Shown here: positions 7,638 through 47,225 of the stretch, piece by piece
Position numbering within the stretch: position 1 is the first letter of the stretch
Layout of the letters: the number at the start of each line of letters is the position of its first letter
Assembly (NCBI RefSeq): GCF_028618575.1
Contig: NZ_JAQITA010000016.1
Span: forward strand, 1-52,581
Direction of reading: 5' to 3'
DNA: 52,581 bases
DNA from: Bartonella sp. ML70XJBT.G
GTDB taxonomy: Bacteria > Pseudomonadota > Alphaproteobacteria > Rhizobiales > Rhizobiaceae
Program-made: the position numbers and the translations under genes
Notes under the pieces: generated by a model
Seen by the model: only the letters and a program-made list of their open reading frames with translations
The model's database searches: none
Told to the model about the DNA's origin: nothing

Positions 7638-7946
7638 AAGGAAGTGCATAAATGGTATCAACTGAAAGTTCAAGACATTTTCGATTTTTTTCAAAAATAT
7701 CTGAAGTTTTTCTTTTATTGATGATATCGGATAACAAGTTGCCCAAATGTATATGTGCTTTTTTTGCCACATTGTCTTGAATAGTGCATCATTCCCCTTC
7801 AAAAAGTTAATTTCATATTTGTATATTGAAAAAAGATGAGTATAGCTAGGAATTATAAGTATCGTGTATTTTACTCTGTCTTTATATAAGTCGAGAAAAT
7901 AATATTCCCTAACGAAGATTGAACTACCTTTCATTGGAGATTCATT
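7638..7946. other. porin upstream region
   Basis: About 309 bp between tRNA-Ser and the porin start. It must carry the porin promoter, but I cannot pick a clear -35/-10 pair with confidence. The ribosome-binding site is plain (ggag about 7 nt before the ATG at 7947). Confidence 0.35.
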
Positions 7947-9155
7947 ATGAATATTAAGTCCCTCTTTTTAAGCTCTACAGCAGCTTTTTTAGCAATTTCT
8001 GGAGCGCATGCCGCTTCAACAGTTGTTGCAGAACCAGAGCCTGTAGAATATGTTCGCGTTTGCGATGCATATGGTAAAGGCTATTTCTATATCCCTGGAA
8101 CAGAGACCTGCATGCGTTTGTCAGGAAATGTTCGCGCTGATTTTCTAGGCGGTGATAATATTGATGCCACAACAAATGCTGAATTAGCTACTAAAAGAAA
8201 AACTTATAGTGCAACATCACAATTAACCCTTGTTTTTCAGACTGCTTCTGAAACAGAAATGGGAACACTTCGTTCATATGCACGTATCTCTTCAAACTGG
8301 AAGGATGGTAACAACAAGGATGGTGCCAAGCTTGCTGCGGCTTACATTGAACTTGGTGGTTTTCGCGTAGGTCTTGATGATACAATTTTCAACAGCTGGA
8401 CCGGTGGTTATGGAAATGTTATAAATGATGACAGCATAGCACCAGCGGGTGTAACGCGTACGAATTTTATTTCTTACACCTTTAGTGGTGATAGTGGCTT
8501 TTCTGCCATTATCGGAGCTGAATTAGGGAATGCTTCCTTCACCGGATCAGGTCCATACTACTACATCGATAAAGATGACAAAGTTACTCCCGTTTCTGGC
8601 GATGACCTTCCACCAAGCAAAGGAATAAAAAATTACACCCCTAATCTGGTTTTGGGTATGAAATTTATGCAAAAATGGGGTGGTTTTTCAGCCGTTGCTG
8701 CTTATGATTCTTACTACAAAAAGTGGGCTGGTAAGGTACGCGTAGATTTCAATGTCAATGATCGTTTCAATTTATGGGCAATGGTTGGCTATAAAAACAG
8801 TGTTGATTACTATGCTGTAGAAAAAGGTACAGACAGTGTGTTAACGCGACAAAATACAACGGTTTACGCAAACTGGGGAGGAAAATGGGCTGCTTGGGCT
8901 GGTGCGACTTACAAACTCACTCCAAAGGCAAATTTAAATGCTCAAGTTTCTTATAGCGCTGTAAAAACCTTTGCAACTTCTGTCAATATTGCTTACACGC
9001 TCGTTCCAGGCTTTGTAATTACACCTGAACTTACTTATGTCTCTTGGAATGATGATCGTACTTTAAAAGGCGTAAACAAAGATACAAAATATACCCATGC
9101 TTTGAATGGAAAAAATGCTTTTCAAGGTATGATTCGCTTACAGCGTTCATTCTAA
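7947..9155 (+). CDS. outer-membrane porin of the rhizobial/Bartonella Omp43 type
   Basis: A 402-residue porin (Porin_2 family) forming a general diffusion channel in the outer membrane; members of this family in Bartonella are major surface proteins that bind host cells. A signal peptide of about 22 residues ends in GAHA, and the mature protein opens with the family hallmark CDAYGKGYFYIPGTETC and RLSGNVRAD. Alternating amphipathic strands fill the rest, and the chain ends in RLQRSF with the terminal phenylalanine needed for barrel assembly. The gene is monocistronic: a good ggag ribosome-binding site lies in front and a strong terminator directly follows. It is the clearest Bartonella-like marker in this half of the window. 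Confidence 0.92.
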   Translation: MNIKSLFLSSTAAFLAISGAHAASTVVAEPEPVEYVRVCDAYGKGYFYIPGTETCMRLSGNVRADFLGGDNIDATTNAELATKRKTYSATSQLTLVFQTASETEMGTLRSYARISSNWKDGNNKDGAKLAAAYIELGGFRVGLDDTIFNSWTGGYGNVINDDSIAPAGVTRTNFISYTFSGDSGFSAIIGAELGNASFTGSGPYYYIDKDDKVTPVSGDDLPPSKGIKNYTPNLVLGMKFMQKWGGFSAVAAYDSYYKKWAGKVRVDFNVNDRFNLWAMVGYKNSVDYYAVEKGTDSVLTRQNTTVYANWGGKWAAWAGATYKLTPKANLNAQVSYSAVKTFATSVNIAYTLVPGFVITPELTYVSWNDDRTLKGVNKDTKYTHALNGKNAFQGMIRLQRSF

Positions 9156-29100: not shown

Positions 29101-29910
29101 TTGAATACGAAAAGTCAAACTATAAAGCAGGTTAAGCAAGACAGTCCTTCTTCGTTTGTTGTTGAGCAAAAAGAGAAGATGGACACGTCTGCTGAAGTAA
29201 CAATGTCCGATATTGCAAAAAAATTACGCTCTGTTTATGCACAAATGCAAATAAAAAATGTTCCTCGTCCTGTAACAGCACAAAGTTTTGTGGAAGAGAG
29301 TTTAAAATCTTACTTGGATGATATTAGTCGGGCAATTTTGGCTGAGCACTATATTCGCCGCCAAAAAGAAAAAAAGCTTTTTGAGTATTTAGAGCAAATT
29401 AAAACACTTGTTCAGAGTTTGCAGAAAGAAAAGAATAGCGTAGAAGAAGCAATGGCGACACGGCGGATAGCGCGTTCAAAATCACTTGATTCTGTTGTGC
29501 AAAAGCTTGCTAATATGGCTGGAGAGGGGGACAAAGAACGCTCGTTGCTCCAAGAGACACCAAGCGGTTCAAAACAAAACAGTATAACTGCAAGCCAAAC
29601 AAATTTTGAAAATGTGTTACAACAAGGGAATAAAAACGCTTTGCCAAATGACACTATAACTCCTTTTTCAAAAGAGGTTGAAGAGCTTGTAGGGCATTCT
29701 ACCGGAGAAGAAAGGACCTCTGATGTTCAAGCATCGGATCTTTGTATTGAGGATGGTTGTACGCATTCCTTAAATCTGAACCTTCAGAAAACTTTCTTTT
29801 CTTCTCTTAAAAGTTTTTTTTGGTGTTTTTTAATCATTGCATTTATGACAGCGATAACGTTATGTTTTTATGGATTTTTAAAAGGAACTGTTTCTTTTCA
29901 TTTTGATTAG
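29101..29910 (+). CDS. tail-anchored coiled-coil protein, unknown function
   Basis: 269 residues from a TTG start (gaggggtag lies about 12 nt upstream); the inner ATGs at residues 26 and 34 are alternatives. The N-terminal half is highly charged and helical, with a likely coiled coil at about 95-150 (KEKKLFEYLEQIKTLVQSL region). A low-complexity polar linker follows, then one hydrophobic helix at about 238-261 close to the C terminus. No signal peptide. This predicts a cytoplasmic protein anchored by its tail in the inner membrane. No family recognised; the protein may be lineage-specific. Confidence 0.65.
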   Translation: MNTKSQTIKQVKQDSPSSFVVEQKEKMDTSAEVTMSDIAKKLRSVYAQMQIKNVPRPVTAQSFVEESLKSYLDDISRAILAEHYIRRQKEKKLFEYLEQIKTLVQSLQKEKNSVEEAMATRRIARSKSLDSVVQKLANMAGEGDKERSLLQETPSGSKQNSITASQTNFENVLQQGNKNALPNDTITPFSKEVEELVGHSTGEERTSDVQASDLCIEDGCTHSLNLNLQKTFFSSLKSFFWCFLIIAFMTAITLCFYGFLKGTVSFHFD

Positions 29911-30981: not shown

Positions 30982-31791
30982 ATGGGTAGATTCTTTTCTT
31001 TATGCATCATTACAGGTTGTTTTTGTGTTGTTTCTTTTTCTGCTTGGGCACATATTGGCGCAAAAGCTGCATTTATTGATCCCGTTGATCATGAAACTAT
31101 CCAAGTTATTGTAACAACAAATAGGATTACAGTTGATGCACATTTCGATGGTCGTGATCTGTATATTGCTGGTGTTTTGGAAAATATCGATCCTTTATAT
31201 TCTCGACAAAATCCTTATGATATTATTGTGAGCTTAGAGGGACCCGCTCGACCAATGGTGATGCGAGAAAAGAAACGTAATGCTGGTGTTTGGGTTAATG
31301 CAGATTCCCTTATTTTTAAAAATGTTCCTCTCTTTTATTCTATGGTCACAACGCGCGAGATTGATGATATTACAAGCGCTGAAGACTATAAACGTTTAGG
31401 GCTTGGATTATCCTCTTTATACCTGCCAACGGATGAACAAGATCAAAAGAAAATACAAATTTTTCGTGATGAGCTTATAAAATTACAAAAAGCCAAAAAT
31501 CTTTATTATGAGGAAGAGGGCGGTGTTCATTTTGGTTCTGGTGCACTTTTTACAGCACATTTTCGTTTGCCAGCCAATACGCCTGTTGGACATTATCAGG
31601 TTCGTGCTTATCTTTTTCGTAATGGGCAATTTATTGACAGTACAACGACAACCCTTGAAATCGTTAAAGCACAAATCACTTATACAATTTTTCATGTAGC
31701 GCATAAGCATAGCTTGCTCTATGGTATGGTTGCTGTGATTGTGGCTATTAGTACAGGCTGTTTATGTCGCTTGATTTTCCGAAAAGATTAG
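30982..31791 (+). CDS. TIGR02186-like periplasmic protein with C-terminal anchor
   Basis: 269 residues: signal peptide of about 23 residues ending SAWA, a periplasmic beta-rich domain, and one transmembrane helix at about 243-263 followed by a short basic tail (RLIFRKD). This layout and its position directly behind a TauE permease match the uncharacterised TIGR02186 family of alphaproteobacteria. It probably works with the permease, perhaps as its periplasmic partner; this is inference from gene order. Confidence 0.8.
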   Translation: MGRFFSLCIITGCFCVVSFSAWAHIGAKAAFIDPVDHETIQVIVTTNRITVDAHFDGRDLYIAGVLENIDPLYSRQNPYDIIVSLEGPARPMVMREKKRNAGVWVNADSLIFKNVPLFYSMVTTREIDDITSAEDYKRLGLGLSSLYLPTDEQDQKKIQIFRDELIKLQKAKNLYYEEEGGVHFGSGALFTAHFRLPANTPVGHYQVRAYLFRNGQFIDSTTTTLEIVKAQITYTIFHVAHKHSLLYGMVAVIVAISTGCLCRLIFRKD

Positions 31792-32358: not shown

Positions 32359-32403
32359 TTTCGACGTTTTGCATGAGGATGAAAAATTTTCAGTACGCCG
32401 AAG
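32359..32403 (+). repeat. degenerate copy of the dppA 3'-flank hairpin
   Basis: Resembles the hairpins after dppA1-3 (TTTCGACG ... CGCCGAAG arms) and is followed by the same spacer (the attattcatctcgaca box near 32470). It lies before the first xseA remnant although no dppA gene precedes it, so a dppA copy was probably lost here. Confidence 0.6.
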
Positions 32404-32537
32404 ATTTCATAACAGTTCAATATGTTGTGTATAGAATGTCATTTCAAGACATCCTATTCCAAAGAGAGATTATTCATCTCGACAAGACTTATATATATAG
32501 GTATTGTATCTAAGTATTTCAATTTTTGTGAAAAAAT

Positions 32538-33167
32538 AGTCATTTGTTTATTAGAAAGATCAGCGCAACAAAAAATGATATCCTAAGCGGAGAGAAATTC
32601 AGTGTTTTGAAAGGAGGGGGCTTTAGAGTGTATTGTTGAAGGAAAAGTTGATTATATGCAGGGGGGCAGCTGAATGATAGGTCACTTTGGTTTCATACTT
32701 TAAATTACATCGTTTTTTCTTAAAGGAAGATAAGGATTGAGAGTGTTCTTTTGTGGGATTGCATGGAAAAACTCCAATTTTTTCTTGAAGAAGGATGAAA
32801 GGAAATGCTGTTAGCACTCAGTTATTTAGGATTTTCAAGAAACTGATTTGTTATTGAAGCTTTTAAAGCGACAGAAGGTCGTAGGTTGGTGACTCTTTTT
32901 AGAAAATCGCAAGAAAAAGTTTGAAGAAAAAAACTTGTTTGATGCAGAAAATAAGAAATCTTTGTCTTATATACTATCGAATGATAGATGTGATGATATC
33001 AGCAACAAGAGTATCTTGTGGTGTTGCTCATTGCATAGGGGTGGTTGTTTTCTGGTGCATATTTTTCTTTAGCCCATTCGTATCAGGGAGGGGCACGAAA
33101 TGGCTGTTATTGGAGGTTTTATATCTCTAAGGGGGTGTGTTTTCTCGGTCTGATTTTTTTATTTTTG
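32538..33167 (+). pseudogene. decayed 5' fragment of xseA (copy A)
   Basis: Matches xseA 40333-40985 in order and direction. Anchors: 32538-32570 with the xseA start, 32625-32690 with codons 35-60, 32910-32980 with the region encoding [22 protein letters not shown], and 33085-33167 with the [11 protein letters not shown] to PKPDVIIV region. It is full of stops and indels. It ends about 25 bp before the dppA1 promoter-like leader. Confidence 0.85.
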
Positions 33168-33171
33168 CGCA

Positions 33172-33219
33172 TTATTGTTGCATGGAAAATTTATACATCA
33201 ATTTTAAAAGGAAAAATCT
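33172..33219 (+). promoter_or_regulatory. dppA1 leader: promoter-like hexamers and ribosome-binding site
   Basis: TTATTG (33172-33177), 16 nt, TACATC (33194-33199), then TTTTAAAAGGAAAAA before the ATG. The same layout (TTATTG or TTGTTA, 16 nt, TACAAT, TTTAAAAGGAAAA) precedes dppA2 and dppA3. Confidence 0.5.
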
Positions 33220-34851
33220 ATGAGTTTGAAAAGAAAGATATTAAAGGGGAGCAGTTCTTTTATTTCTACTGTTCTTGCAGTGGGGATGTTTGTGCAACAA
33301 GTGTCAGCAAAGACACCTGCTGATACTCTCGTGATGGCTTTGAATATTGATTCAATTGAGACCTTTGATCCTGCACAGATCAATGAACGTTATGGAAATG
33401 AAATTGTTGCTAATATTTGTGATAATTTAATCGATTCAGCTACAGATGATTCCGCTAAAATAGTTCCTGCTTTGGCCAAGAGTTGGGATGTTTCAAATGA
33501 TGGCGGGGGTACGGTCATTACTTTTCATTTGCGTGATGATTTGAAGTTTAATGATGGTCGGCCTGCTGGTGCTCATGATCTGGTTTGGGGCATGAAGCGG
33601 GTTGTTAAATTAAAATTGTCTGCAGCGGCAACATTTAATGAATATGGTATTACAGAACAAAATATTGATTCTACTCTTCAAGCCCCTGATGAAAAAACGG
33701 TGGTGATGAAATTTGATAAACCTTATCCAGCAGAGATTATTCTTGGTCATATTCTTACTGTTCGCATTGCTGCTCTTCTTGATCGTGAGACAATTATGAA
33801 ACACGAACAAGATGGTGATATGGGAAATCGCTATTTGGCAAGCCATGCTGCTTGTGTTGGCCCTTATCAGTTAGAGAGTTGGCGTTCTGGGGAAGCGATT
33901 TTGTTACGTGCCAGTTCCCATTATTGGGGAGAGGCACCTAAATTGAAGAAGATTCTCATTCGTCATATTGGTGAGCCTGGAACACAGCGTTTATTGTTGG
34001 AAAAACACGATATTGATGTGGCACGTAATTTAATGCCAGAGGATGTAGCAGATATCCAAGCAACAACAGATATTAAGATTGAGAAAAGATTGACTCCATC
34101 CGTGATTATGTGGGGATTTAACACGACAAATCCTATTTTTGCCAATGAAAAAGTGCGTTTGGCAATGCGCTATCTTATTGATTATGAAACACTTGGAAAG
34201 ACTCTTCTTAAAGATGTTGGTATTCCACGGGCTAGCTTTATTCCCATTGGTAATCTTGGTGCTTTGGATGAAAAAGAAGGGCAACCTTTTAAACTTGACC
34301 TTCAAAAAGCCAAGCAGCTTTTGACAGAGGCAGGTTATCCGGATGGTTTTGAGGCCAATATTTATGCCGGAAAATCTCCTTATCCTTTTGCTTTGCCCAT
34401 TGCTCAGTCTATTCAGGACAATGCAAAAAAGATAGGCGTGCACTTTAAGATTGAAAATTTTGTAGGGACGCAGTTGTTTTCAAAACTTTATGCACGTGGC
34501 TTTGATACAATTTTTATGGGATGGAATAACGATTCTGCAGATCCTTATACGATGGCTTCACGTCTTGTTTACAATCCTGATAATCGATTTGAGGCTAAGA
34601 ACACAGGCTATGTTAGTTGGTGTCATGGGTATTTGGATGAAGAGATGAATAAAAAGGTGAGGGATGCATTGTTTCAGAAAGATCCACAGAAACGGGCGCA
34701 GATGTATGCTGATTTGCAGCGTGATTTTATGCAAAAAGGTCCCTATGCTTTTATCTATCAAACATATAACATTGTCGCTATGACACCTGATGTGAAAAAA
34801 TGGGTTTGGAATAGTGCGCCACGTATTTTTTATAGTGCTATTGAAAAATAA
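33220..34851 (+). CDS. dppA: periplasmic dipeptide/oligopeptide (possibly heme) binding protein, copy 1
   Basis: SBP_bac_5 family solute-binding protein, 543 residues with a signal peptide cut after QQVSA (about residue 30). Family landmarks: ADTLVMALNIDSIETFDPAQ at the mature N terminus, TFHLRDDLKFNDGRP, and the C-terminal YNIVAMTPDVKKWVW. Such proteins deliver peptides, and in the DppA/HbpA group also heme, to an inner-membrane permease. First of five paralogues upstream of dppBCDF. Closest to copy 3, with long near-identical DNA blocks (for example around 34290-34450 versus 39360-39520). The substrate is not predictable. Confidence 0.9.
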   Translation: MSLKRKILKGSSSFISTVLAVGMFVQQVSAKTPADTLVMALNIDSIETFDPAQINERYGNEIVANICDNLIDSATDDSAKIVPALAKSWDVSNDGGGTVITFHLRDDLKFNDGRPAGAHDLVWGMKRVVKLKLSAAATFNEYGITEQNIDSTLQAPDEKTVVMKFDKPYPAEIILGHILTVRIAALLDRETIMKHEQDGDMGNRYLASHAACVGPYQLESWRSGEAILLRASSHYWGEAPKLKKILIRHIGEPGTQRLLLEKHDIDVARNLMPEDVADIQATTDIKIEKRLTPSVIMWGFNTTNPIFANEKVRLAMRYLIDYETLGKTLLKDVGIPRASFIPIGNLGALDEKEGQPFKLDLQKAKQLLTEAGYPDGFEANIYAGKSPYPFALPIAQSIQDNAKKIGVHFKIENFVGTQLFSKLYARGFDTIFMGWNNDSADPYTMASRLVYNPDNRFEAKNTGYVSWCHGYLDEEMNKKVRDALFQKDPQKRAQMYADLQRDFMQKGPYAFIYQTYNIVAMTPDVKKWVWNSAPRIFYSAIEK

Positions 34852-34895
34852 GCGTGTCTTAGAATATTGTGAACTTTAAAAATGTGATCATGATA

Positions 34896-34943
34896 GCTTC
34901 GACGTTTTGCGTTTGGTTGAAAACCTCTGCAATATGTCGAAGT
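34896..34943 (+). repeat. structured hairpin 3' of dppA1
   Basis: Arms CTTCGAC / GTCGAAG (34897-34942) with further pairing inside (TTGC/GCAA and GGTT/AACC closing a GAA loop). No T tract follows, so it is not a standard terminator. Related elements follow dppA2 and dppA3. Confidence 0.65.
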
Positions 34944-35082
34944 TTATCGGTAGAGAAGTGATATACTAGCGAGAGAAAGGGATTTTAAGGTACTCCATGG
35001 CATAAAGAGATTATTCATCTCGACAAATCAAACGCACATAGGTATTATAATTGAATATTTCAATCTTATTTGAAAAAATAAT

Positions 35083-35718
35083 TATTTGTTGATGGCAAGA
35101 GAAACGTAACCAAACAGGCACAATAAGCGGTGCAAAATTTGGTGTTTTTGAAAGAGTGGGGGGTTAGAATGTGTTGTCGAAGAAAAATTTGATTGTATGC
35201 AGGGGCGTGGGGGAATGTCAGGTCACTGTGGGTTTCATGCTTAAAATTATACCCTCTTTCCTTAAAAGAAGATAAGGTGCTGAGACTGTTTTTTGGGGGG
35301 ATTTATAGAAAATCTTAGATTTCCCTTAATGAAAGAGAGAAGGAAGCGCTATAAGCACTCAGTTATTTAGAATTTGTAGAATAGCAATTTGTTATTGAGG
35401 TTTTTTAAATCAACTGAAGATGGCGCGGTGGTGACTCTTTTCAGAAAAAAGCAGGAAGACGTTTGAAAAAGAAAGCCTGTTTGATGAAGTAAACAAGAAA
35501 TCTTTGCTTGATATACTTTGAATTACAGATGTTGTGATATCAGTAATAGATCTTGTTACTTGTGGTGTTACTCATCGCATAGGGGTGATTTTTTTCCATT
35601 GTATATTTTGTTTTAGCCTGTCTGTGTTCAGGAGGGGTTGAGTGGTTACCGCTGTTGAGAGTTTTGATGCTTTTTCTCTAGGGGGGTATTCCAAAAACTG
35701 ATCTTTTTATTTTTGCGT
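35083..35718 (+). pseudogene. decayed 5' fragment of xseA (copy B)
   Basis: Collinear with xseA 40333-40985. Particularly clear at 35170-35230 ([17 protein letters not shown] region), 35395-35520 (the [19 protein letters not shown] to LPYM region) and 35615-35718 (the WPVRVQG to DVIIVA region). Indels and stops prevent translation. It is joined directly to the leader of dppA2. Confidence 0.88.
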
Positions 35719-35719
35719 G

Positions 35720-35768
35720 TTGTTATCGCATGGGACGTTTGTACAATAAATTTTAAAAGGAAAAGGCT
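35720..35768 (+). promoter_or_regulatory. dppA2 leader: promoter-like hexamers and ribosome-binding site
   Basis: TTGTTA (35720-35725), 16 nt, TACAAT (35742-35747), then AAAAGGAAAAGG ending 2-3 nt before the ATG region. From TACAATAAA onward it is nearly identical to the dppA4 leader. Confidence 0.55.
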
Positions 35769-37394
35769 ATGAATAGAAAAAGAAAAATATTGAAAGGCAG
35801 CACTTCTTTTGTTTCTGCTGTTCTTGCATTGGGGATGTTCGTACAACACGTTTCAGCAAAAACACCTGTCGATACCCTCGTGATGGCTTGGAATATTGAT
35901 GGTATCAGTACGTTTGATCCTGCGCAGATCAACAACGTTTATGGAACTGAAATAGTTCTCAATGTTTGTGACAATTTGGTTGATACTGTTAGAGATGATC
36001 CAACAAAAGTCATTTCTTCTTTGGCAACACACTGGGATGTTTCAGGCGGTGATCAGAGTACAGTGCTTACTTTTCATTTGCATGATGGTTTGAAGTTTAA
36101 TGATGGTCGGCCTGCGAGTGCTCGTGATCTTGTTTGGAGTATGAAGCGGATTATTAAGTTGAAGATGGCTAGAACAGAGCTTTTTCATGAATATGGTATT
36201 ACAGAACAGAACATGGATTCTGCTCTTCAAGCACCAGATGAGAAAACAGTGGTGATGAAATTTGATAAGCCTTATCCTGTAGAACTTCTCCTTAATAATT
36301 TTATTGCGAGTTACGCTACTGCGTTGCTTGATCGTGAGACACTTATGAAACATGAAAAAAATGGTGATATGGGAAATCGCTATTTGGCTAGCCATGCTGC
36401 CTGTGTTGGTCCTTATCGATTGGCGAGCTGGCGTCCTGGAGAAGCAATTTTATTGCGTGCAAGTTCCCATTATTGGGGGAAAGCACCTAAATTAAAAAAG
36501 ATTCTCATTCGCCATGTTGCGGAGTCTGGAACACAACGTTTATTGTTGCAAAAAGGCGATATCGATGTTGCTCGTGACTTGAGACCTGAGGATCTCGCAG
36601 ATCTCCAAGCAACAACAGATATTAAGGTGGAAAGAGTGTTGGAGCCTACCATGATGATGTGGGGATTTAACACGACAAATCCTATTTTTGCCAATGAAAA
36701 AGTGCGTTTGGCAATGCGTTATCTTATTGATTATGAGGCTCTTGGCAAGACTCTTCTCAAAGGTGTTGGTGTTCCACGGGCAAGCTTTATTCCTCTTGGT
36801 AATTTTGGTGCTTTGGATGAAAAAGAAGGGCGGCCCTTTAAACTTGATCTTAAAAAAGCCAAACAGCTCTTAACAGAGGCAGGTTATTCAAAAGGCTTTA
36901 ACGTTAATTTTTTAGTGGGGAGCGCTTATTATGCTTTGCCCATTGCTCAGTCTATTCAAGACAATGCAAAAAAGGTAGGTGTGCATCTTAAAATTGAACG
37001 TTTGGCAAACGCACAGTTGTTTTCAAAACTTTCTGCGCGTGCTTTTGATACGATTTTTGTCGGATGGAATAATGACTCTGCGGATCCTCATTCCATGGCT
37101 TCACGCCTTGTTTACAATCCCGATAATCGGTTTGAGGCAAAAAATACAGCCCACCTTAGTTGGTGTCATGGCTATTTGGATAAGGCTATGAATAAAAAGG
37201 TAGAGGCAGCATTATTTCAAAAAGATCCACAGAAACGGGCACAAATTTATGCTGATTTGCAGCGTGAACTTATGCAAAAAGGTCCGTATGCTTTTATCTT
37301 TCAGAAATATAATGTTGTAGCTATGACACCTCATATTAAACAATGGGTATGGAATAGTACACCACGTATTTTTTATAATGCCATTGAAAAATAA
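35769..37394 (+). CDS. dppA: periplasmic dipeptide/oligopeptide (possibly heme) binding protein, copy 2
   Basis: 541-residue SBP_bac_5 protein, signal peptide ending QHVSA. Same architecture as copy 1 but with its own variant segments: RTELFHEYGITEQNMD near residue 135 and FLVGSAYYALPIAQ replacing the YAGKSPYPFALPIAQ type of copies 1 and 3, so it is two residues shorter there. The first ~25 codons are nearly identical at DNA level to copy 4. Variation concentrates in the ligand-facing lobes while the C-terminal blocks stay constant, which suits divergence in ligand choice. Confidence 0.9.
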   Translation: MNRKRKILKGSTSFVSAVLALGMFVQHVSAKTPVDTLVMAWNIDGISTFDPAQINNVYGTEIVLNVCDNLVDTVRDDPTKVISSLATHWDVSGGDQSTVLTFHLHDGLKFNDGRPASARDLVWSMKRIIKLKMARTELFHEYGITEQNMDSALQAPDEKTVVMKFDKPYPVELLLNNFIASYATALLDRETLMKHEKNGDMGNRYLASHAACVGPYRLASWRPGEAILLRASSHYWGKAPKLKKILIRHVAESGTQRLLLQKGDIDVARDLRPEDLADLQATTDIKVERVLEPTMMMWGFNTTNPIFANEKVRLAMRYLIDYEALGKTLLKGVGVPRASFIPLGNFGALDEKEGRPFKLDLKKAKQLLTEAGYSKGFNVNFLVGSAYYALPIAQSIQDNAKKVGVHLKIERLANAQLFSKLSARAFDTIFVGWNNDSADPHSMASRLVYNPDNRFEAKNTAHLSWCHGYLDKAMNKKVEAALFQKDPQKRAQIYADLQRELMQKGPYAFIFQKYNVVAMTPHIKQWVWNSTPRIFYNAIEK

Positions 37395-37439
37395 GTGTGT
37401 ATTAGAAGGCTATAAATTCTAAAAGTGTTATCTTGATAA

Positions 37440-37485
37440 CTTCGGCGTTTTTTCTATGGTTGAAAAATCTTATAAGATACCGAAG
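37440..37485 (+). repeat. structured hairpin 3' of dppA2
   Basis: Arms CTTCGG / CCGAAG with an inner GGTT/AATC stem; same position relative to the dppA stop (about 45 nt) as in copies 1 and 3. Confidence 0.6.
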
Positions 37486-37621
37486 CTCATCGTAGCCAAA
37501 CAATATGCTCCGGAGAGAATGGGGTTTCAAGATATCCTCTTTCAAAGTGAGATTATTCATCTCGACAAAACATATATATATAGTTATTATGGTTAACTGT
37601 TTCAATATTTTTGCAAAAATA

Positions 37622-38234
37622 ATTATTTGTTGATTGAAAAAACAAGTGCAACAAAAACAGACACAATAATTGGTGCAGAATTTGGTGTTTTTGAAAGAGC
37701 GGGGGGTCTTGAAATGTGTTGTTGAAGAGAAATTTGATTGTATGCAGGAATGTGAGTGAATATTAGGACACTGTGGGGTTCATACGTTAGATTGTGCGAT
37801 CTTTCCTTAACAGAAGATAAGATGCTGAAAGTGTTCTTTGCTGTGTTTCATAGAAAAACTCAAATTTTCTCCTGAAGAAGGAGGGAGAGGGTTATGGTTT
37901 GCAAATTTTTCTCTAGGGCTATTCAATGATTCTTGAGGTTCTTGAACCGAGGGGAAGATGATGACTCTTTTTAGAAAATGGTAAGAATAAGTTTGAGGAA
38001 GAAGGTTTGTTTGATGAAACGAACAAGGATCTTTCCCTGATATGTCCTGAATTATTCGTGTTTTGACGTACTAGTAAGATGCTTATCGTTTATGATGTTA
38101 CTCATTTTATTTATCGAGACGTTTTCCTTTGCATATTTTCATTTCGCTTATCCGTGTTAGGGGGAGCGAAGGGTTGTGGGGTTTTATATTCTAAGGGGGT
38201 GTGTTTTCTCAGTCTGATCTTCTTATTTTTGCGC
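37622..38234 (+). pseudogene. decayed 5' fragment of xseA (copy C)
   Basis: Third collinear copy of xseA codons 1 to about 217. Clear at 37720-37760 (VVEEKFGYV region), 37850-37890 ([10 protein letters not shown] region), 37935-38045 (EALEPTG to LPYM region) and 38150-38234. Interrupted by stops and indels; ends at the dppA3 leader. Confidence 0.87.
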
Positions 38235-38235
38235 A

Positions 38236-38281
38236 TTATTGTTGCATGGAGAATTTATACAATAAGTTTTAAAAGGAAAAA
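38236..38281 (+). promoter_or_regulatory. dppA3 leader: promoter-like hexamers and ribosome-binding site
   Basis: TTATTG (38236-38241), 16 nt, TACAAT (38258-38263), then TTTTAAAAGGAAAAA just before the ATG. Confidence 0.55.
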
Positions 38282-39916
38282 TTGATGAGTTTGAAAAGAA
38301 AGATATTAAAGGGGAGCAGTTCTTTTATTTCTGCTGTTCTTGCCGTGGGGATGTTTGCACAACAAGTGTCAGCAAATACGCCTGCTGATACCCTCGTGAT
38401 GGCTTGGGACCTTGATGCAATTAGTAATTTTGATCCTGCGCAACTCAATGATCGCTATGGAGCTGAAATTGTTGTTAATGTTTGCGACAATTTGGTGGAT
38501 ACTGCAAAAGACGATGGGACTAAAGTTGTTCCTTCTTTGGCTAAGAGTTGGGATGTTTCAAGTGATGACCAGAGTACGGTCATTACTTTTCATTTGCGTG
38601 ATGATTTGAAGTTTAATGATGGTCGGACTGCTGGTGCTCATGATCTGGTTTGGGGCATGAGGCGGGTTGTCAAATTGAAGCTGTCTAACGCGGCAACCTT
38701 TAATGAATATGGTATCACAGAAAAAAATGTTGATGAAGCTTTTCAAGCACCCGATGAAAAAACAGTGGTCATGAAATTTGATAAACCTTATCCAGCAGAG
38801 CTTATTTTGAGCAATATTTCTACTCATCGCACTGTTGCTTTACTTGATCGTGAGACACTGATGAAACACGAACAAGATGGTGATATGGGAAATCGCTATT
38901 TAGCAAGCCATGCTGCTTGTGTTGGCCCTTATCAGTTAGAGAGTTGGCGTCCTGGAGAAGGGATTTTGTTACGTGCCAGTTCCCATTATTGGGGAGAGGC
39001 GCCTAAATTGAAGAAGATTCTCATTCGTCATATTGCCGAGCCTGGAACACAACGTTTATTGTTGGAAAAACACGATATCGATGTGGCACGTAATTTAACG
39101 CCAGAGGATATAGCAGATCTTCAAGCAACAACAGATATTAAGGCTGAAAAAGTGTTGGCTCCATCCATGATCATATGGGGATTTAACACGACAAATCCTA
39201 TTTTTGCCAATGAAAAAGTACGTTTGGCAATGCGCTATCTTATTGATTATGAAACTCTTGGAAAAACTCTTCTTAAAGATGTTGGTATTCCACGGGCTAG
39301 CTTTATTCCTCTTGGTAATTTTGGTGCTTTGGATGAAAAAGAAGGGCAACCTTTTAAACTTAACCTTCAAAAAGCCAAGCAGCTTTTGACAGAGGCAGGT
39401 TATCCGGATGGTTTTGAGGCCAATATTTATGCCGGAAAATCTCCTTATCCTTTTGCTTTGCCCATTGCTCAGTCTATTCAGGACAATGCAAAAAAGATAG
39501 GCGTGCACTTTAAGATTGAACATTTTATTGGTACGCAATTATTTTCAAAACTTTATGCACGTGGCTTTGATACAATTTTTATAGGATGGAATAATTCGTC
39601 GTCGGATCCTCATACGATGGCTTCGCGTCTTATTTTAAACCCTGATAATGGATTTGAGGCTAAAAATACAGGCTATCCTAGTTGGTGTCATGGGTATTTG
39701 GATGAAGAGATGAATAAAAAGGTGAGGGATGCATTGTTTCAGAAAGATCCACAGAAACGGGCGCAGATGTATGCTGATTTGCAGCGTGATTTTATGCAAA
39801 AAGGTCCCTATGCGTTTATCTATCAGACATATAACATTGTCGCTATGACACCTGATGTAAAAAAATGGGTTTGGAATGGTGCACCACGTATTTTTTATAG
39901 TGCCATTGAAAAATAA
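38282..39916 (+). CDS. dppA: periplasmic dipeptide/oligopeptide (possibly heme) binding protein, copy 3
   Basis: 544-residue SBP_bac_5 protein with an alternative start one codon later (MSLKRK at 38285, which equals the copy 1 start). The signal peptide ends QQVSA. Nearly identical to copy 1 across residues 335-420 and in the C-terminal 70 residues, but with local differences such as WDLDAISNFDPAQLNDRYGA and the WNNSSSDPHTMASRLILNPDNG block. Such a patchwork of identity and divergence suggests past gene conversion with copy 1. Confidence 0.9.
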   Translation: MMSLKRKILKGSSSFISAVLAVGMFAQQVSANTPADTLVMAWDLDAISNFDPAQLNDRYGAEIVVNVCDNLVDTAKDDGTKVVPSLAKSWDVSSDDQSTVITFHLRDDLKFNDGRTAGAHDLVWGMRRVVKLKLSNAATFNEYGITEKNVDEAFQAPDEKTVVMKFDKPYPAELILSNISTHRTVALLDRETLMKHEQDGDMGNRYLASHAACVGPYQLESWRPGEGILLRASSHYWGEAPKLKKILIRHIAEPGTQRLLLEKHDIDVARNLTPEDIADLQATTDIKAEKVLAPSMIIWGFNTTNPIFANEKVRLAMRYLIDYETLGKTLLKDVGIPRASFIPLGNFGALDEKEGQPFKLNLQKAKQLLTEAGYPDGFEANIYAGKSPYPFALPIAQSIQDNAKKIGVHFKIEHFIGTQLFSKLYARGFDTIFIGWNNSSSDPHTMASRLILNPDNGFEAKNTGYPSWCHGYLDEEMNKKVRDALFQKDPQKRAQMYADLQRDFMQKGPYAFIYQTYNIVAMTPDVKKWVWNGAPRIFYSAIEK

Positions 39917-40063: not shown

Positions 40064-40321
40064 TTGATGAGAGAGGTTATCATAAAAGAACTGTTGGTGT
40101 GGATGTTAAGATTGAATATTTTAACTTCTGTTGATAGAATTTTCTGGATTGAACAATGTTCCGCAGACTCTTACGTTTTCAACTTTATTTACAATCCGGA
40201 TCATCGGTTTGAGGTTAAAAATACAAGCTGTTCTGGTTGGTGTTATGCGTATTTGGATGAAGCTATCAATCAAAAGTTTAAAAATGTATTATTGCAAATA
40301 GATTCACAAGAACGGGTGTAA
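40064..40321 (+). pseudogene. remnant of a dppA 3' region directly upstream of xseA
   Basis: An open frame of 85 codons whose content is a diverged piece of the binding-protein C-terminal domain: GVDVKIEYF-like start, then FNFIYNPDHRFEVKNTSCSGWCYAYLDEAIN and [10 protein letters not shown], matching LVYNPDNRFEAKNT...WCHGYLDEEMN and LFQKDPQKRA of the intact genes. An internal segment is missing and the last ~40 residues are lost. It stops 12 nt before the xseA start. Confidence 0.85.
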
Positions 40322-40332
40322 AGAATTTAAAA

Positions 40333-41763
40333 ATGGTAAGTTTGTTTGGTGAAAAAGTAGGTGCAACGAATGTAGTAGAATTTACTGTTTCTGAAATAGC
40401 AGGGGCTTTAAAGCGCGTTGTTGAAGAAAAGTTTGGTTATGTGCGGGTGCGTGGGGAAATATCAGGTTATCGTGGTCCTCATGCTTCTGGTCATGCTTAC
40501 TTTGCTTTAAAGGATGATAAGGCACGGTTGGAGGCTGTTATTTGGCGTGGGTTTATGGAAAAGCTCAAATTTCCTCCTGAAGAGGGGATGGAAGTGATTG
40601 CTGTTGGCAAACTGACAACTTACCCAGGATCATCAAAGTACCAAATTGTTATTGAAGCACTTGAACCAACTGGAGTTGGCGCTTTGATGGCACTTTTAGA
40701 AAATCGTAAAAAAAAGCTTGCAGAGGAAGGTTTATTTGATGAAGCCAAAAAAAAACCTTTGCCTTATATGCCTCGAATTATAGGCGTTGTGACATCGCCA
40801 ACTGGCGCTGTTATTCGCGATATTATTCATCGTATATCAGATCGTTTTCCCTTGCATATTTTGGTTTGGCCTGTTCGTGTTCAGGGAGAAACCTGTGGGC
40901 GTGAAGTGGCTGCTGGCGTTGAGGGTTTTAATGCACTGCCTGTAGGAGGTTCTCTTCCAAAGCCTGATGTTATTATTGTGGCGCGAGGAGGAGGAAGCTT
41001 GGAAGATTTATGGGGGTTTAATGATGAAGCTGTTGTGCGTGCTGTTTATGCCTCTGACTTACCTGTTATCTCTGCGGTTGGGCATGAGACAGATTGGACT
41101 TTAATTGATTATGTTGCTGATTGGCGTGCTCCGACCCCTACAGGGGCAGCAGAAAAGGCTGTTCCCGTCAAGCTTGATCTCGAAGCCTATGTGGCATCGC
41201 TTGGTGCACGTTTACGTACGGGACTCACACGTTATCTTGATTTTCATCAACAAAAATTGCGTGCTCTTATCCGTGGACTTCCCACGGTTGATCAACTTTT
41301 TGCTCTACCACGACGTGGTTTTGATGAAATTTCCAGCCGGTTACAGCGTGCTCTTTGTGTGAGTTATGATAAAAAGCGTTTTTCTTTCCATGCACTTTCT
41401 CTTCGTCTTGCACCGCGTTTGTTGAATACTGAAAAAGCACAACGCAATACCAAGGAATATGTGATGCGTCTTCAGCGTGCTTTTGTGCACAAGGTGGAAA
41501 AACAACGTGCTCAGATAGAAGTTGCTTTTAGGCTTTTAAAAAGCACTTCGTATCAGAATATTTTAGAGCGTGGTTTTGTTTTGGCTTTGGGGAAAGAGAA
41601 TAAACCCATTAAACGATTGGTGCAGTTTCCTGAAACAGGTCAAGTCAATTTACGTTTTTTTGATGGTGATGTCAGTGTTGTCACCGAGGAATCTGCTTTG
41701 AATAAACGTTCAAAACACAAACAGATAAAGCAACAAGGCGATGATCAAGGAACACTCTTTTGA
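40333..41763 (+). CDS. xseA: exodeoxyribonuclease VII large subunit
   Basis: Catalytic subunit of ExoVII, which degrades single-stranded DNA with XseB. 476 residues: N-terminal OB-fold (about 14-110, with [21 protein letters not shown]), the central nuclease domain with [30 protein letters not shown] and [28 protein letters not shown], and a C-terminal coiled-coil region. All catalytic motifs look intact, so this is the one working copy among four xseA-derived stretches. The tag ORF overlaps its 3' end. xseB is not in the window. Confidence 0.94.
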
Positions 41764-42367
41764 TATGGTCAATCAGGTGCTCGAGGAAGGACTTCGCAGG
41801 GGAGCGGATGGAAAAATTCGTTGTTCATGGGCAGGAGATGATCCGCTTTACTGTGCTTATCATGATCATGAATGGGGAAGTCCTGTTTTTGAAGATCGCC
41901 GTTTGTTTGAAAAAATTTGTCTTGAAGGTTTTCAAGCAGGGCTTTCTTGGCTTACCATTTTAAAAAAACGTTCTTTTTTTCAAGAGGCATTTGATTACTT
42001 TGACTTCGAAAAAATCAGTCATTATGATGAAGAAAAAGTGCAAATATTGATGCAGAATAAAGGTATTGTTCGTCATCAAGGAAAAATTCGCTCAGTGCTT
42101 AATAACGCATTGAGGGCACAGGAAATTATCACAGAGTGGGGAAGTTTATCTCACTATTTTTGGTCTTTTCAACCACCACAATCAGAGCGTTATGAAAAGA
42201 TCAATTTTCAAACATTGTTAGCAAATCCTATAACACCTGCGTCTCTTCGTCTTTCTCAAGACTTGAAAAAACGTGGCTGGACATTTGTTGGACCAACGAT
42301 TTGTTATGCTTTTATGCAGTCGGTAGGCATTGTTAATGATCATCTTGAAGGGTGCTTTTGTCGATAA
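41741..42367 (+). CDS. tag: DNA-3-methyladenine glycosylase I
   Basis: Excises 3-methyladenine from alkylated DNA. 208 residues from the ATG at 41741, which overlaps xseA by 23 nt; an ATG at 41765, just after the xseA stop, would give 200 residues and is equally possible. Family features: [20 protein letters not shown] with zinc ligand Cys and His, the [19 protein letters not shown] block, the catalytic-pocket [16 protein letters not shown] segment, and the C-terminal [14 protein letters not shown] with the other ligands. Confidence 0.93.
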
Positions 42368-43619: not shown

Positions 43620-45245
43620 ATGAATAGAAAAAGAAAAATATTGAAAGGCAGCACTTCTTTTGTTTCTGCTGTTCTTGCATTGGGGATGTTCGTGCAACAA
43701 GTTTCAGCAAAAACACCTGTCGATACCCTCGTAATGGGTTGGAATATTGATGGAATCAATACATTTGATCCTGCGCAGCTTAATGATGTTTATGCAAATG
43801 AAATTGTTCTCAATGTTTGTGATAATTTGGTGAGTACTGCTACAGATGATCCAGCAAAAATCGTTCCCTCTTTAGCAACACACTGGGATGTTTCAGGCGG
43901 TGATCAGAGTACAGTGCTTACTTTTCATTTGCGTGATGGTTTAAAATTTCATGATGGTCGATCTGCGAATGCTCATGATCTTGTTTGGGGCATGAAGCGA
44001 ATTGTCAAATTGAAGATGGCAAATGCGGCGATATTTAATGAATATGGTATTACAGAACAAAATGTTGATTCTGCTCTTCAAGCACCCGATGAGAAAACGG
44101 TGGTGATGAAATTTGATAAGCCTTATCCAGCAGAGCTTATTCTTAATAATATTGTTGCGAGTCGTGCTACGGCCTTGCTTGATCGTGAGACCATTATGAA
44201 GCATGAAAAAAATAGTGATATGGGAAATCGCTATTTGGCCAGTCATGCTGCTTGTGTTGGTCCTTATCGATTGGCGAGCTGGCGTCCTGGAGAAGCAATT
44301 TTATTGCGTGCAAGTTCCCATTATTGGGGGGAAGCACCTAAGTTAAAAAAGATACTCATTCGCCATGTTGCAGAGACTGGAACACAACGCTTATTGTTAC
44401 AAAAACATGATATCGATGTTGCTCGTGATTTGAGACCTGAGGATCTTGCAGATCTCCAAGCAACAACAGATATTAAGGTGAAAAGCGTTTTGGAGCCTTC
44501 CATGATGTATTGGGGTTTTAATACGACAAATCCTATTTTTGCCAATGAAAAAGTACGTTTGGCGATGCGCTATCTTATTGATTATGAGGCTCTTGAAAAG
44601 AGCATTCTCAAAGGTGTCGGTGTTCCACGGGCAAGCTTTATTCCTCTTGGTAATTTTGGGGCCTTGGATGAAAAAGAAGGGCAGCCCTTTAAACTTGATC
44701 TTCAAAAAGCCAAACAGCTCTTAACAGAGGCAGGTTATTCGAAAGGCTTTGAGGTTAATTTTTTAATAGGAAGCTCTCATTATGCTTTGCCCATTGCTCA
44801 GTCTATTCAAGACAATGCGGCAAAGGTAGGCGTGCATCTTAAAATTGAACGTTTAGCAGGTACGCAGGTGTTTTCAAAACTTTCTGCACGTAGCTTTGAT
44901 ACGATTTTTGTCGGATGGAATAATGACTCTGCGGATCCTCATTCAATGGCTTCACGCCTTGTTTACAATCCCGATAATCAGTTTGAGGCGAAAAATACAG
45001 CCTATCCAAGTTGGCAGCATGGCTATTTGGATGAGGCTATGAATAAGAAGGTGATGGAAGCATTATTTCAAAAAGATCCACAGAAACGGGCGCAAATTTA
45101 TGCTGATTTGCAGCGTGAACTTATGCAAAAAGGACCTTATGCTTTTATCTTTCAGAAATATAGTGTTGTAGCTATGACACCTCGTATAAAAAAATGGGTT
45201 TGGAATAGTGCTCCGCGTATTTTTTATAGTGCAATTGAAAAATAA
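43620..45245 (+). CDS. dppA: periplasmic dipeptide/oligopeptide (possibly heme) binding protein, copy 4
   Basis: 541-residue SBP_bac_5 protein, signal peptide ending QQVSA. Its first ~85 bp of DNA and its FLIGSSHYALPIAQ segment show that it pairs with copy 2 rather than with copies 1 and 3. Distinctive positions include HDGRSANAHDLVWG and the WQHGYLDEAMN block, where the other copies have WCHGYLD. It is separated from copy 3 by xseA and tag, so it is not part of the 2.5-kb tandem array in the strict sense. Followed by a terminator-like hairpin. Confidence 0.9.
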   Translation: MNRKRKILKGSTSFVSAVLALGMFVQQVSAKTPVDTLVMGWNIDGINTFDPAQLNDVYANEIVLNVCDNLVSTATDDPAKIVPSLATHWDVSGGDQSTVLTFHLRDGLKFHDGRSANAHDLVWGMKRIVKLKMANAAIFNEYGITEQNVDSALQAPDEKTVVMKFDKPYPAELILNNIVASRATALLDRETIMKHEKNSDMGNRYLASHAACVGPYRLASWRPGEAILLRASSHYWGEAPKLKKILIRHVAETGTQRLLLQKHDIDVARDLRPEDLADLQATTDIKVKSVLEPSMMYWGFNTTNPIFANEKVRLAMRYLIDYEALEKSILKGVGVPRASFIPLGNFGALDEKEGQPFKLDLQKAKQLLTEAGYSKGFEVNFLIGSSHYALPIAQSIQDNAAKVGVHLKIERLAGTQVFSKLSARSFDTIFVGWNNDSADPHSMASRLVYNPDNQFEAKNTAYPSWQHGYLDEAMNKKVMEALFQKDPQKRAQIYADLQRELMQKGPYAFIFQKYSVVAMTPRIKKWVWNSAPRIFYSAIEK

Positions 45246-45608
45246 ATGCGTATTTAATAATACTGAAAAATATAAAAAGAACGTGGTCATCATGTAAATG
45301 ATGAAAATATCCTCCGCAGATGCTTATCTTAACGTTAAGGTATGAAATTGCGGGGGGCTTTTGTATAATACAATTAAGGTATAGTTTAGAGGGGGGTAAT
45401 GTTGATCCGTATGAAAAGTAAGGGCTTTTGGAAGTCTCTGTGATAATACTACAGAGGGTGTGCATCTCAGTTGTAGGTGCTGTGTGAGAAAATCGTTTTC
45501 AGCTTTTTGATGCCTAAAATTGATAACATGACGCTGTGTGAGAAATAAAAGAAAAATCAGCAGTATTTTAAAAAATAATCAAAGAAAATACAAAGGATAT
45601 TGATTAAA
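45246..45608. other. spacer between dppA4 and dppA5
   Basis: Holds the terminator-like hairpin listed next and an AT-rich stretch with AAAGGA 11 nt before the dppA5 ATG. No xseA-like sequence seen. Confidence 0.45.
45311..45365 (+). terminator. terminator-like hairpin after dppA4
   Basis: Outer arms CCTCCGCA (45311-45318) and TGCGGGGG (45349-45356, one G-T pair), with an inner palindrome CTTAACGTTAAG, followed by a short T-containing stretch (CTTTTGT). The T tract is weak, so termination may be partial. Confidence 0.55.
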
Positions 45609-47225
45609 ATGACGCAAAAAAGAATTTTAAAAAATTTGTGTGTTTTGCTAAGTACAATCGGTTTTTTAAATGGATCTGTATCATCAGTATTGAGTGCGTC
45701 ATCGAAAGATGCATTGGTGATGGCATGGAATGTGGATTCAATTAGTAGCTTTGATCCAGCGCAAACAGTTGAAGTTGTCGCGAGTGAATTATTGACAAAT
45801 ATATGTAGTGCATTAGTGCAGTATGATCAGGGTGATCCTACAAGAATTCGCCCTGCTATGGCACAATCTTGGGAAGTTTTAGATGGTGGAAAAAGAATTG
45901 TTTTTCATCTTCGTGATGATTTAAAATTTGATGATGGAAGGGTTGCTACAGCACAAGATCTTGCTTGGTCAATGCGACGAATTATTAAATTGGGATTAGG
46001 ATATGCTCAGTTTTTGATGGATTATGGTTTTAATAAAAACAATATGGAAACGCATATTCAAGCTCTTGATGAGAGAACTTTACAGCTAAAACTAGATAAA
46101 CCCTATCCTATTCAGCTTATATTAACAGCTATTGGACAGTCCTATGCTTCTGCTTTACTTGATCGGAAAACAGTTGAAGCAGAAAGTATAAATGGTGATA
46201 TGGGCAATAAATATTTGGCAACGCATTCGGCTTGTGTTGGACCTTATAAATTGGTACGTTGGTCTCCTGGAGAAAAAGTTGTATTGGAAGCTACGAAATA
46301 TTATTGGGGAGAGGCACCTAAAATTAAGCAAATTGTTGTGCAGCATGTTGCGGATTCAGCAAGCCAGAGACTTCTTTTGGAAAAAGGTGATGTGGATATA
46401 GCGCGTGATCTTTCTTCAGAGGATATTCTAGATATTGAAAAGCAGGGGGGGGCAGTCAAAATTAGCCGCGTTTTGCGACCACAGATTATTTATCTCTCGT
46501 TGAATAATAAAAATACAATTTTTTCTCATGAAAAAGTGCGGTTGGCACTTCGTTATTTAGTCGATTATGAGGGACTGGGAAAGACTGTTTTAAAAGGTAT
46601 TGGCATTCCACGTGCTAGTTATATGGCGTTGGGAATTCCTGGCGCTTTGGATGAAAAAGAGGGATTGCCCTTTAAGTTAGATTTGAAAAAAGCCAAGCAA
46701 TTGATGAGTGAGGCCGGTTATCCCAATGGTTTTAAAGCTAATCTTTTAGTTGGTAGCCTTAGTTATATGTCATCTGTTGCGCAGTCTATTCAAGCCAATG
46801 CGCGTAAAATTGGTGTTGATCTTACCATTGAAAAAATGGCACAAAATCAATTGTTAAGCCGTGTGCGTGGTGGAAATTATGATAGTGCACTTATGGGATG
46901 GGGAAGTGCTGATCCTGATGGACATCCTGCCTCGTTAAATCATGTTTTTAATCCTGATCCAACATTTACAGAAAAGCACAATATGTATCTGGCTTGGCGT
47001 GCTGGATATTATGATGAAAATATTAATAAAATGGTGATGGATGCTCTGTTTGAGCAAGATCAAAATAAGCGTCTTTTACAGTATCGTGCTTTACAGAATT
47101 ATGTGTTTGAACATGGTCCTATGGTTTATTTATTTCAGACATATTATACCATTGGTATGGGACCTGCAGTCAAAAAATGGGCTTGGAATAGTTTTAGACT
47201 TTATTACAGTGATGCAGAAAAGTAA
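45609..47225 (+). CDS. dppA: periplasmic dipeptide/oligopeptide binding protein, divergent copy 5
   Basis: About 538 residues from the ATG at 45609; a TTG at 45600 is in frame but too close to the AAAGGA box. Same family and length as copies 1-4 but clearly more distant: the lipid-free signal peptide ends LSAS, and blocks such as NMETHIQALDERTLQLKLDKPYP and MGWGSADPDGHPASLNHVFNPD differ while the overall order is kept. It lies directly before dppB (about 100 bp), so it is the likely ancestral partner of the permease, with copies 1-4 as an amplified side branch. Confidence 0.9.
   Translation: MTQKRILKNLCVLLSTIGFLNGSVSSVLSASSKDALVMAWNVDSISSFDPAQTVEVVASELLTNICSALVQYDQGDPTRIRPAMAQSWEVLDGGKRIVFHLRDDLKFDDGRVATAQDLAWSMRRIIKLGLGYAQFLMDYGFNKNNMETHIQALDERTLQLKLDKPYPIQLILTAIGQSYASALLDRKTVEAESINGDMGNKYLATHSACVGPYKLVRWSPGEKVVLEATKYYWGEAPKIKQIVVQHVADSASQRLLLEKGDVDIARDLSSEDILDIEKQGGAVKISRVLRPQIIYLSLNNKNTIFSHEKVRLALRYLVDYEGLGKTVLKGIGIPRASYMALGIPGALDEKEGLPFKLDLKKAKQLMSEAGYPNGFKANLLVGSLSYMSSVAQSIQANARKIGVDLTIEKMAQNQLLSRVRGGNYDSALMGWGSADPDGHPASLNHVFNPDPTFTEKHNMYLAWRAGYYDENINKMVMDALFEQDQNKRLLQYRALQNYVFEHGPMVYLFQTYYTIGMGPAVKKWAWNSFRLYYSDAEK

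Follow-up and report, generated by a model that had tools for sequence, protein, structure and literature searches.

According to our analysis, the three stretches of DNA that precede dppA1, dppA2, and dppA3 in Bartonella sp. ML70XJBT.G are decayed copies that cover the upstream region and the first ~655 nt of xseA, each fused to a copy of dppA, and they probably go back to a single event of duplication and deletion, in the ancestor of one Bartonella clade, whose product was later multiplied in tandem. The blocks are of xseA origin and no longer form functional reading frames, and each of them belongs with the dppA downstream of it, because the units of the clade read xseA-derived DNA and then dppA and the mapped outgroup loci carry no dppA in the fetched DNA upstream of xseA. 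The event is of an ordinary kind and involves no new mechanism, and its record is unusually legible.

Layout of the array and structure of its units

In the window, by which we mean the whole stretch of 52,581 nucleotides analyzed here, the order is TIGR02186-family gene, block 1, dppA1, block 2, dppA2, block 3, dppA3, a dppA fragment, intact xseA, tag, dppA4, dppA5, and dppB (Table 1). The repeats run head to tail with an identical novel junction, as in a tandem amplification array, and the start-to-start distances of 2549 and 2513 bp given in the preliminary description are correct if dppA3 is taken to start at TTG 38282 (ATG 38285). The intact xseA exceeds the equivalog cut-off of TIGR00237 for XseA (exonuclease VII large subunit). 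Both dppA1 and dppA4 exceed the PF00496 gathering score of 32.4 and are family-5 solute-binding proteins (SBP_bac_5), while the cut-off of 1005 for DppA proper (NCBIfam equivalog NF043070) is not reached (132.1 and 117.2 bits), so that "dppA" serves here as a label taken over from the preliminary description and not as an equivalog assignment. The assembly has a contamination estimate of 9.29%; the array sits on one contig, and its order is matched in the closest relative, G087. Elsewhere in the window, the ORF at 29101-29910 gave a weak match to Wadjet JetA (18.8 bits, below the cut-off of 26.2).

Table 1. Features of the array and its surroundings in the window.
Feature	Position	Strand	Remarks
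TIGR02186-family membrane protein gene, upstream neighbor of the array	30982-31791	+	TIGR02186 250.5 bits (just under the curated cut-off, 255.25); PF09608 230 bits (cut-off 24.5)
xseA-upstream DNA ahead of block 1	32360-32537	+	Runs on from the TIGR02186 flank
Promoter-like TCGACA-N17-TATTGT, unit 1	32479-32507	+	9/12
Decayed xseA 5' block 1	32538-33181	+	~xseA nt 1-655 plus short repeat at junction
dppA1 leader	33182-33219	+	Homologous to native dppA4 leader
dppA1, family-5 solute-binding protein gene	33220-34851	+	543 aa; PF00496 263.5 bits
dppA4-type 3' flank after dppA1	34852-34897	+	~46-50 nt; boundary set by eye; equivalent position after dppA2 and dppA3
xseA-upstream DNA, unit 2	34898-35082	+
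Promoter-like TCGACA-N17-TATTAT, unit 2	35020-35048	+	10/12
Decayed xseA 5' block 2	35083-35730	+	Self-blastn, local alignment, relatives as guide
dppA2	35769-37394	+	Open frame; groups with native dppA4; ~90% identical over 35742-37403, read as probable gene conversion
xseA-upstream DNA, unit 3	37441-37621	+
Promoter-like TCGACA-N17-TATTAT, unit 3	37562-37590	+	10/12
Decayed xseA 5' block 3	37622-38246	+	Self-blastn, local alignment, relatives as guide
dppA3	38285-39916	+	Open frame; ATG 38285, listed from TTG 38282
dppA fragment	40131-40316	+	dppA nt 1283-1477, one in-frame stop; 16 nt ahead of xseA start
Intact xseA	40333-41763	+	TIGR00237 414.6 bits (cut-off 180)
tag (methyladenine glycosylase)	41741-42367	+	Absent from units; PF03352 232.6 bits
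Native dppA4	43620-45245	+	Likely source of array copies; PF00496 265.7 bits
Native dppA5	45600-47225	+	Beside dppB (47268)

Across the clade loci, the unit consists of ~190 nt of xseA-upstream DNA, the first ~655 nt of xseA, a 38-nt dppA leader, dppA, and ~50 nt beyond it, and one to four such units stand in tandem ahead of intact xseA. With relatives as a guide, the xseA homology of the blocks could be followed from near the ATG to nt ~655, where all of them end, in agreement with the common breakpoint described earlier; between that point and the common leader of ~38 nt lies a short stretch resembling a repeated xseA end. Homology to dppA4 extends from ~38 nt before the start to ~50 nt past the stop, and the flank-like ~50 nt are followed by the ~190 nt that resemble the xseA-upstream DNA of species without units, most clearly that of G022, G025, and G030. 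These ~190 nt ahead of each block, like the separate dppA fragment, are additions to the preliminary description. The junction stretch (repeat plus leader) outscored 200/200 mononucleotide shuffles in 54/54 units with a dppA start, and the terminal 20 nt of the xseA homology did so in 28/54, being decayed in the remainder. A 37-nt leader pattern with at most 3 mismatches occurs in 23/71 Bartonella genomes (reversed control, 0), a count that is a lower bound, several unit-bearing genomes having been missed.

A dppA fragment lies 10 to 16 nt ahead of the xseA start in 15/30 clade loci, extending from nt 1277-1293 to nt 1477-1481 in 12 of them and being shorter in 2 and weak in G017. Its distribution on the xseA+tag+TIGR02186 tree is patchy, and, since its ends are similar among loci, the sequences argue for one insertion event behind it.

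Decay of the xseA blocks beside constrained dppA genes

That the three blocks align in order with the 5' part of xseA, as had been claimed, was borne out at ~70% identity: in local alignments, block 1 matched xseA nt 47-679 over window positions 32596-33194 (415/592 identical, 70.1%), block 2 matched nt 47-651 over 35136-35717 (406/578, 70.2%), and block 3 matched nt 21-557 over 37653-38165 (354/507, 69.8%). The respective scores were 97, 111, and 81 SD higher than those of 200 dinucleotide-preserving shuffles each, which rules out chance similarity, and in self-blastn of the region the best piece per block had E values of 2e-40, 8e-27, and 8e-21. Mismatch to xseA is nearly even across codon positions (0.26 to 0.34), two window stretches found by protein search contain 14 and 10 stops, and the longest stop-free run is below 110 aa in every decayed match among those listed. 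Among ORFs of at least 50 aa in 43 spacers, a comparison of positions found none that recurs beyond the close pair G017/G035. A single Rfam match (E 0.0013; 30.1 bits, gathering score 61), on the minus strand within dppA2, was taken as chance.

The dppA genes are under purifying selection, with dN/dS values between the window and G087 of 0.058, 0.197, 0.076, and 0.092 for dppA1 to dppA4 and of 0.189 to 0.328 among the four window copies. Divergence of the blocks is comparable to that of intergenic DNA elsewhere: orthologous divergence is 0.056 to 0.177 for block bodies, 0.078 to 0.121 for tag-dppA4 spacers, and 0.030 to 0.166 for TIGR02186 flanks, with overlapping indel rates. The earlier proposal of xseA parts decaying beside selected dppA copies is thus upheld; the accompanying statement that the dppA copies stayed open holds in the window and fails in G010, G023, G026, G027, G029, and G065, whose upstream copies are truncated or carry stops. 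With even substitutions, no kept frame, and a rate like that of other non-coding DNA, the blocks behave as neutral pseudogene remnants, with the reservation that the ratio of block divergence to neighboring dS (0.26 to 1.72) is below 1 in 16/18 comparisons, which could reflect some constraint; other intergenic DNA behaves alike. Over 14 orthologous pairs, which share part of some genomes' history and whose counts are hence not fully independent, mismatches amount to 43/817 in the leader (0 to 60 nt) against 744/7880 in the block body (p=3e-5) and to 148/1921 in the xseA-derived upstream part, which is slightly more conserved than the block body (p=0.017); the stretch beyond that part has 171/1501. 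The xseA remnant is likely to be passive filler; what is kept is the leader of dppA together with its reading frame.

Each window unit also holds a promoter-like site at an equivalent position, and the promoter-like stretch is identical at 20/20 nt among the three units. Strong conservation was not upheld, since other species differ by at least 3 mismatches and the contrast with the block body is the weak one given above. Capture of a promoter by the array dppA from xseA-derived upstream DNA is plausible at most, because it is the leader that is conserved, with slight conservation of the upstream region. That each array dppA is transcribed from a start in this DNA is a prediction, because the window sites sit among 49 promoter-like sites, with 34.8 expected (sd 6.1), of which seven match at 10/12.

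Distribution in Bartonella and history of the array

Loci were mapped in 36 genomes (19 of the clade and 17 others) and in a further 14 (11 and 3), giving 30 inside and 20 outside the clade, besides 26 named loci; of the 71 genomes of the genus in all, 21 were covered by protein search alone, with capped match lists. In loci outside the clade, xseA is followed downstream by tag and then by one or more dppA genes, and no dppA was found upstream of xseA in 20/20 mapped loci within the 8.6 to 17 kb fetched; upstream matches of 21 to 32 nt in G014, G031, and G082 were taken as chance. The 30 genomes that bear units or are nested among such genomes form one clade (support, 0.736) on the xseA+tag+TIGR02186 tree, and 28/30 of their loci hold one or more xseA blocks. 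Unit number is 1 in washoeensis, vinsonii, and phoceensis, 3 in the window, and 4 in tribocorum and G032. G078 has no unit and an xseA upstream region resembling the ancestral state; because it is nested in the clade, as sister to washoeensis (support, 1.0), loss of units is likely. In G023, a truncated upstream dppA is present, and no block was found ahead of it except a 47-nt match on the other strand.

Several loci show other rearrangements. At L139 (G036:C1:878000-897900), the whole array and the TIGR02186 gene lie on the strand opposite xseA and tag, an inversion one end of which falls in the interval separating the dppA fragment from the last dppA. In two loci outside the clade, L128 (G025) and G083:C1:1178476-1179896, xseA is broken into two reading frames around codon 220 by what may be a sequencing error or a real frameshift; the split falls at a G-rich run, not far from the point at which the blocks end. 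A decayed dppA copy (~56 to 60% identity) lies between tag and dppA4 in L174 (G070) and L168 (G078); none above the E 0.01 threshold was found in the window's own tag-dppA4 spacer. L168 also carries, at 7840-7990 after orientation, ~175 nt of the xseA 3' part (nt 1064-1237) within the TIGR02186-xseA spacer; as a pre-deletion intermediate it was rejected, being an insert between two pieces of that spacer.

All blocks form one clade in a tree of 43 blocks and 28 xseA genes (support, 0.954) and again, with no intact gene within, in a larger tree of 56/57 blocks (G010 block 1 left out) and 38 xseA genes, where the support is just 0.41, so that the main argument for a single origin is the junctions shared among units. 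Measured from the common ancestor in the larger tree, median branch length is 0.578 for blocks and 0.172 for the intact xseA of the clade. Because the six blocks of the window and G087 form one clade there (support, 1.0), we read the window array as having expanded or been homogenized within this lineage. Blocks 2 and 3 each pair with their G087 counterpart (both, 1.0) and block 1 does not; body divergence from G087 is 0.224 for block 1 and 0.068 and 0.082 for blocks 2 and 3.

A first dppA tree kept 89/92 sequences (G026_u1, G027_u1, and vinsonii n4 dropped for frame or stops), and G070_n4 was left out of a later one. In the later tree, a clade of four (support, 1.0) unites the dppA2 and dppA4 genes from both the window and G087, and array copies likewise group with the dppA4 of their own genome in washoeensis (u1/n4, 0.994) and CM31XJBT (u1/n4, 0.97). 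Such grouping suggests that the coding part of some array copies, including dppA2 of the window, was converted from dppA4.

The locus of the single-unit species washoeensis, phoceensis, and vinsonii subsp. vinsonii reads TIGR02186, block, dppA, xseA. Since this arrangement has xseA-upstream DNA on both sides of dppA, we infer a tandem duplication of xseA-tag-dppA4 with one internal deletion, the array copies being most likely derived from native dppA4. The duplicated stretch would have run from xseA -190 to dppA4 +50, and ~2.6 kb (the xseA 3' part, tag, and the tag-dppA4 spacer) would then have been lost from the first copy, a deletion that would have left the xseA upstream region directly ahead of a dppA copy. 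Later unequal exchange among these 2.5-kb repeats may have raised the number of units to between one and four or removed units, as in G078, and gene conversion from dppA4 may have rewritten some array copies. An intermediate with a second full xseA-tag-dppA4 was not found among the genomes examined.

The preliminary description had the opposite direction, with a dppA standing ahead of xseA and a unit of dppA, its 3' flank, and the xseA 5' part amplified in tandem. Its tandem amplification with truncated xseA passengers and a shared breakpoint is real, and the dppA fragment ahead of intact xseA could be the remnant of such a dppA; comparison with related genomes nevertheless speaks against its direction and source of the unit, and we consider it very unlikely. 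None of the 20 mapped outside loci has the required dppA in the fetched upstream DNA, block 1 directly follows the TIGR02186 gene with upstream DNA continuous with the flank of that gene, the single-unit species show the block before the dppA, and the fragment is missing from half of the clade loci (15/30). This model would also predict one block fewer than upstream dppA genes, whereas in the window the number of blocks equals that of the intact upstream dppA genes. A history in which xseA and dppA were fused several times independently, or in which the unit passed horizontally between species, would fit the conflict between trees (the window blocks form a clade with those of G087 and dppA1 to dppA3 do not), the patchiness of the dppA fragment, and the weak monophyly of the blocks in one tree. 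The identical two-sided junction in every unit examined and the constant chromosomal place between TIGR02186 and xseA make this highly improbable, and the dppA conflict is explained by conversion from dppA4.

It is also unlikely, if less so, that the blocks are retained because they serve the array dppA genes as long 5' leaders or as regulatory DNA. Spacer length is 840 to 950 nt in most internal units, and the divergence below dS, the slight conservation of the xseA-derived upstream stretch, and the promoter-like identity among the window units would agree with such a role. The mismatch profile along the block body over the 14 pairs is flat, however, divergence and indel rate are like those of the tag-dppA4 and TIGR02186-flank DNA, large deletions are tolerated in some units (e.g., G017/G035 unit 2 and G024 unit 1), and no Rfam family was found in the spacers at gathering score.

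Known parallels and meaning

The array resembles three known kinds of event. Tandem gene duplication or amplification with truncated passenger genes is matched by the 2.5-kb direct repeats, the novel common junction, the species-variable copy number, and a passenger decaying beside a selected gene; unlike the usual case, each dppA has its passenger in front of it and not behind it, and this passenger comes from the 5' part of a gene whose intact version still stands alongside. Promoter capture by duplication-deletion fusion likewise sets a gene copy behind the upstream region of another gene, whereas here the promoter is putative and its sequence slightly conserved. Concerted evolution of tandem paralogues by gene conversion has its counterpart in the array copies that group with the dppA4 of the same genome (window, washoeensis, and CM31XJBT); in contrast to the known cases, donor and recipients are parted by xseA and tag, and conversion is read from trees only. 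No description of the array was found in the literature covered by our search, from which subscription papers mostly fell outside, so that absence is not proven.

Across many species and at known tree depth, a decaying xseA remnant shares a 2.5-kb unit with a selected gene, and it thus offers a junction marker and a rough clock by which fusion, amplification, loss, and conversion in a transporter family can be separated. It is a speculative and rather doubtful extension that the captured xseA upstream region runs an extra, separately controlled set of peptide-binding-protein genes, with 2.5-kb cassettes that vary in copy number by repeat exchange and coding parts repeatedly rewritten from a master dppA4. 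If true, such a cassette array would allow these blood-borne bacteria, as a clade, to readjust their uptake of peptides or haem.
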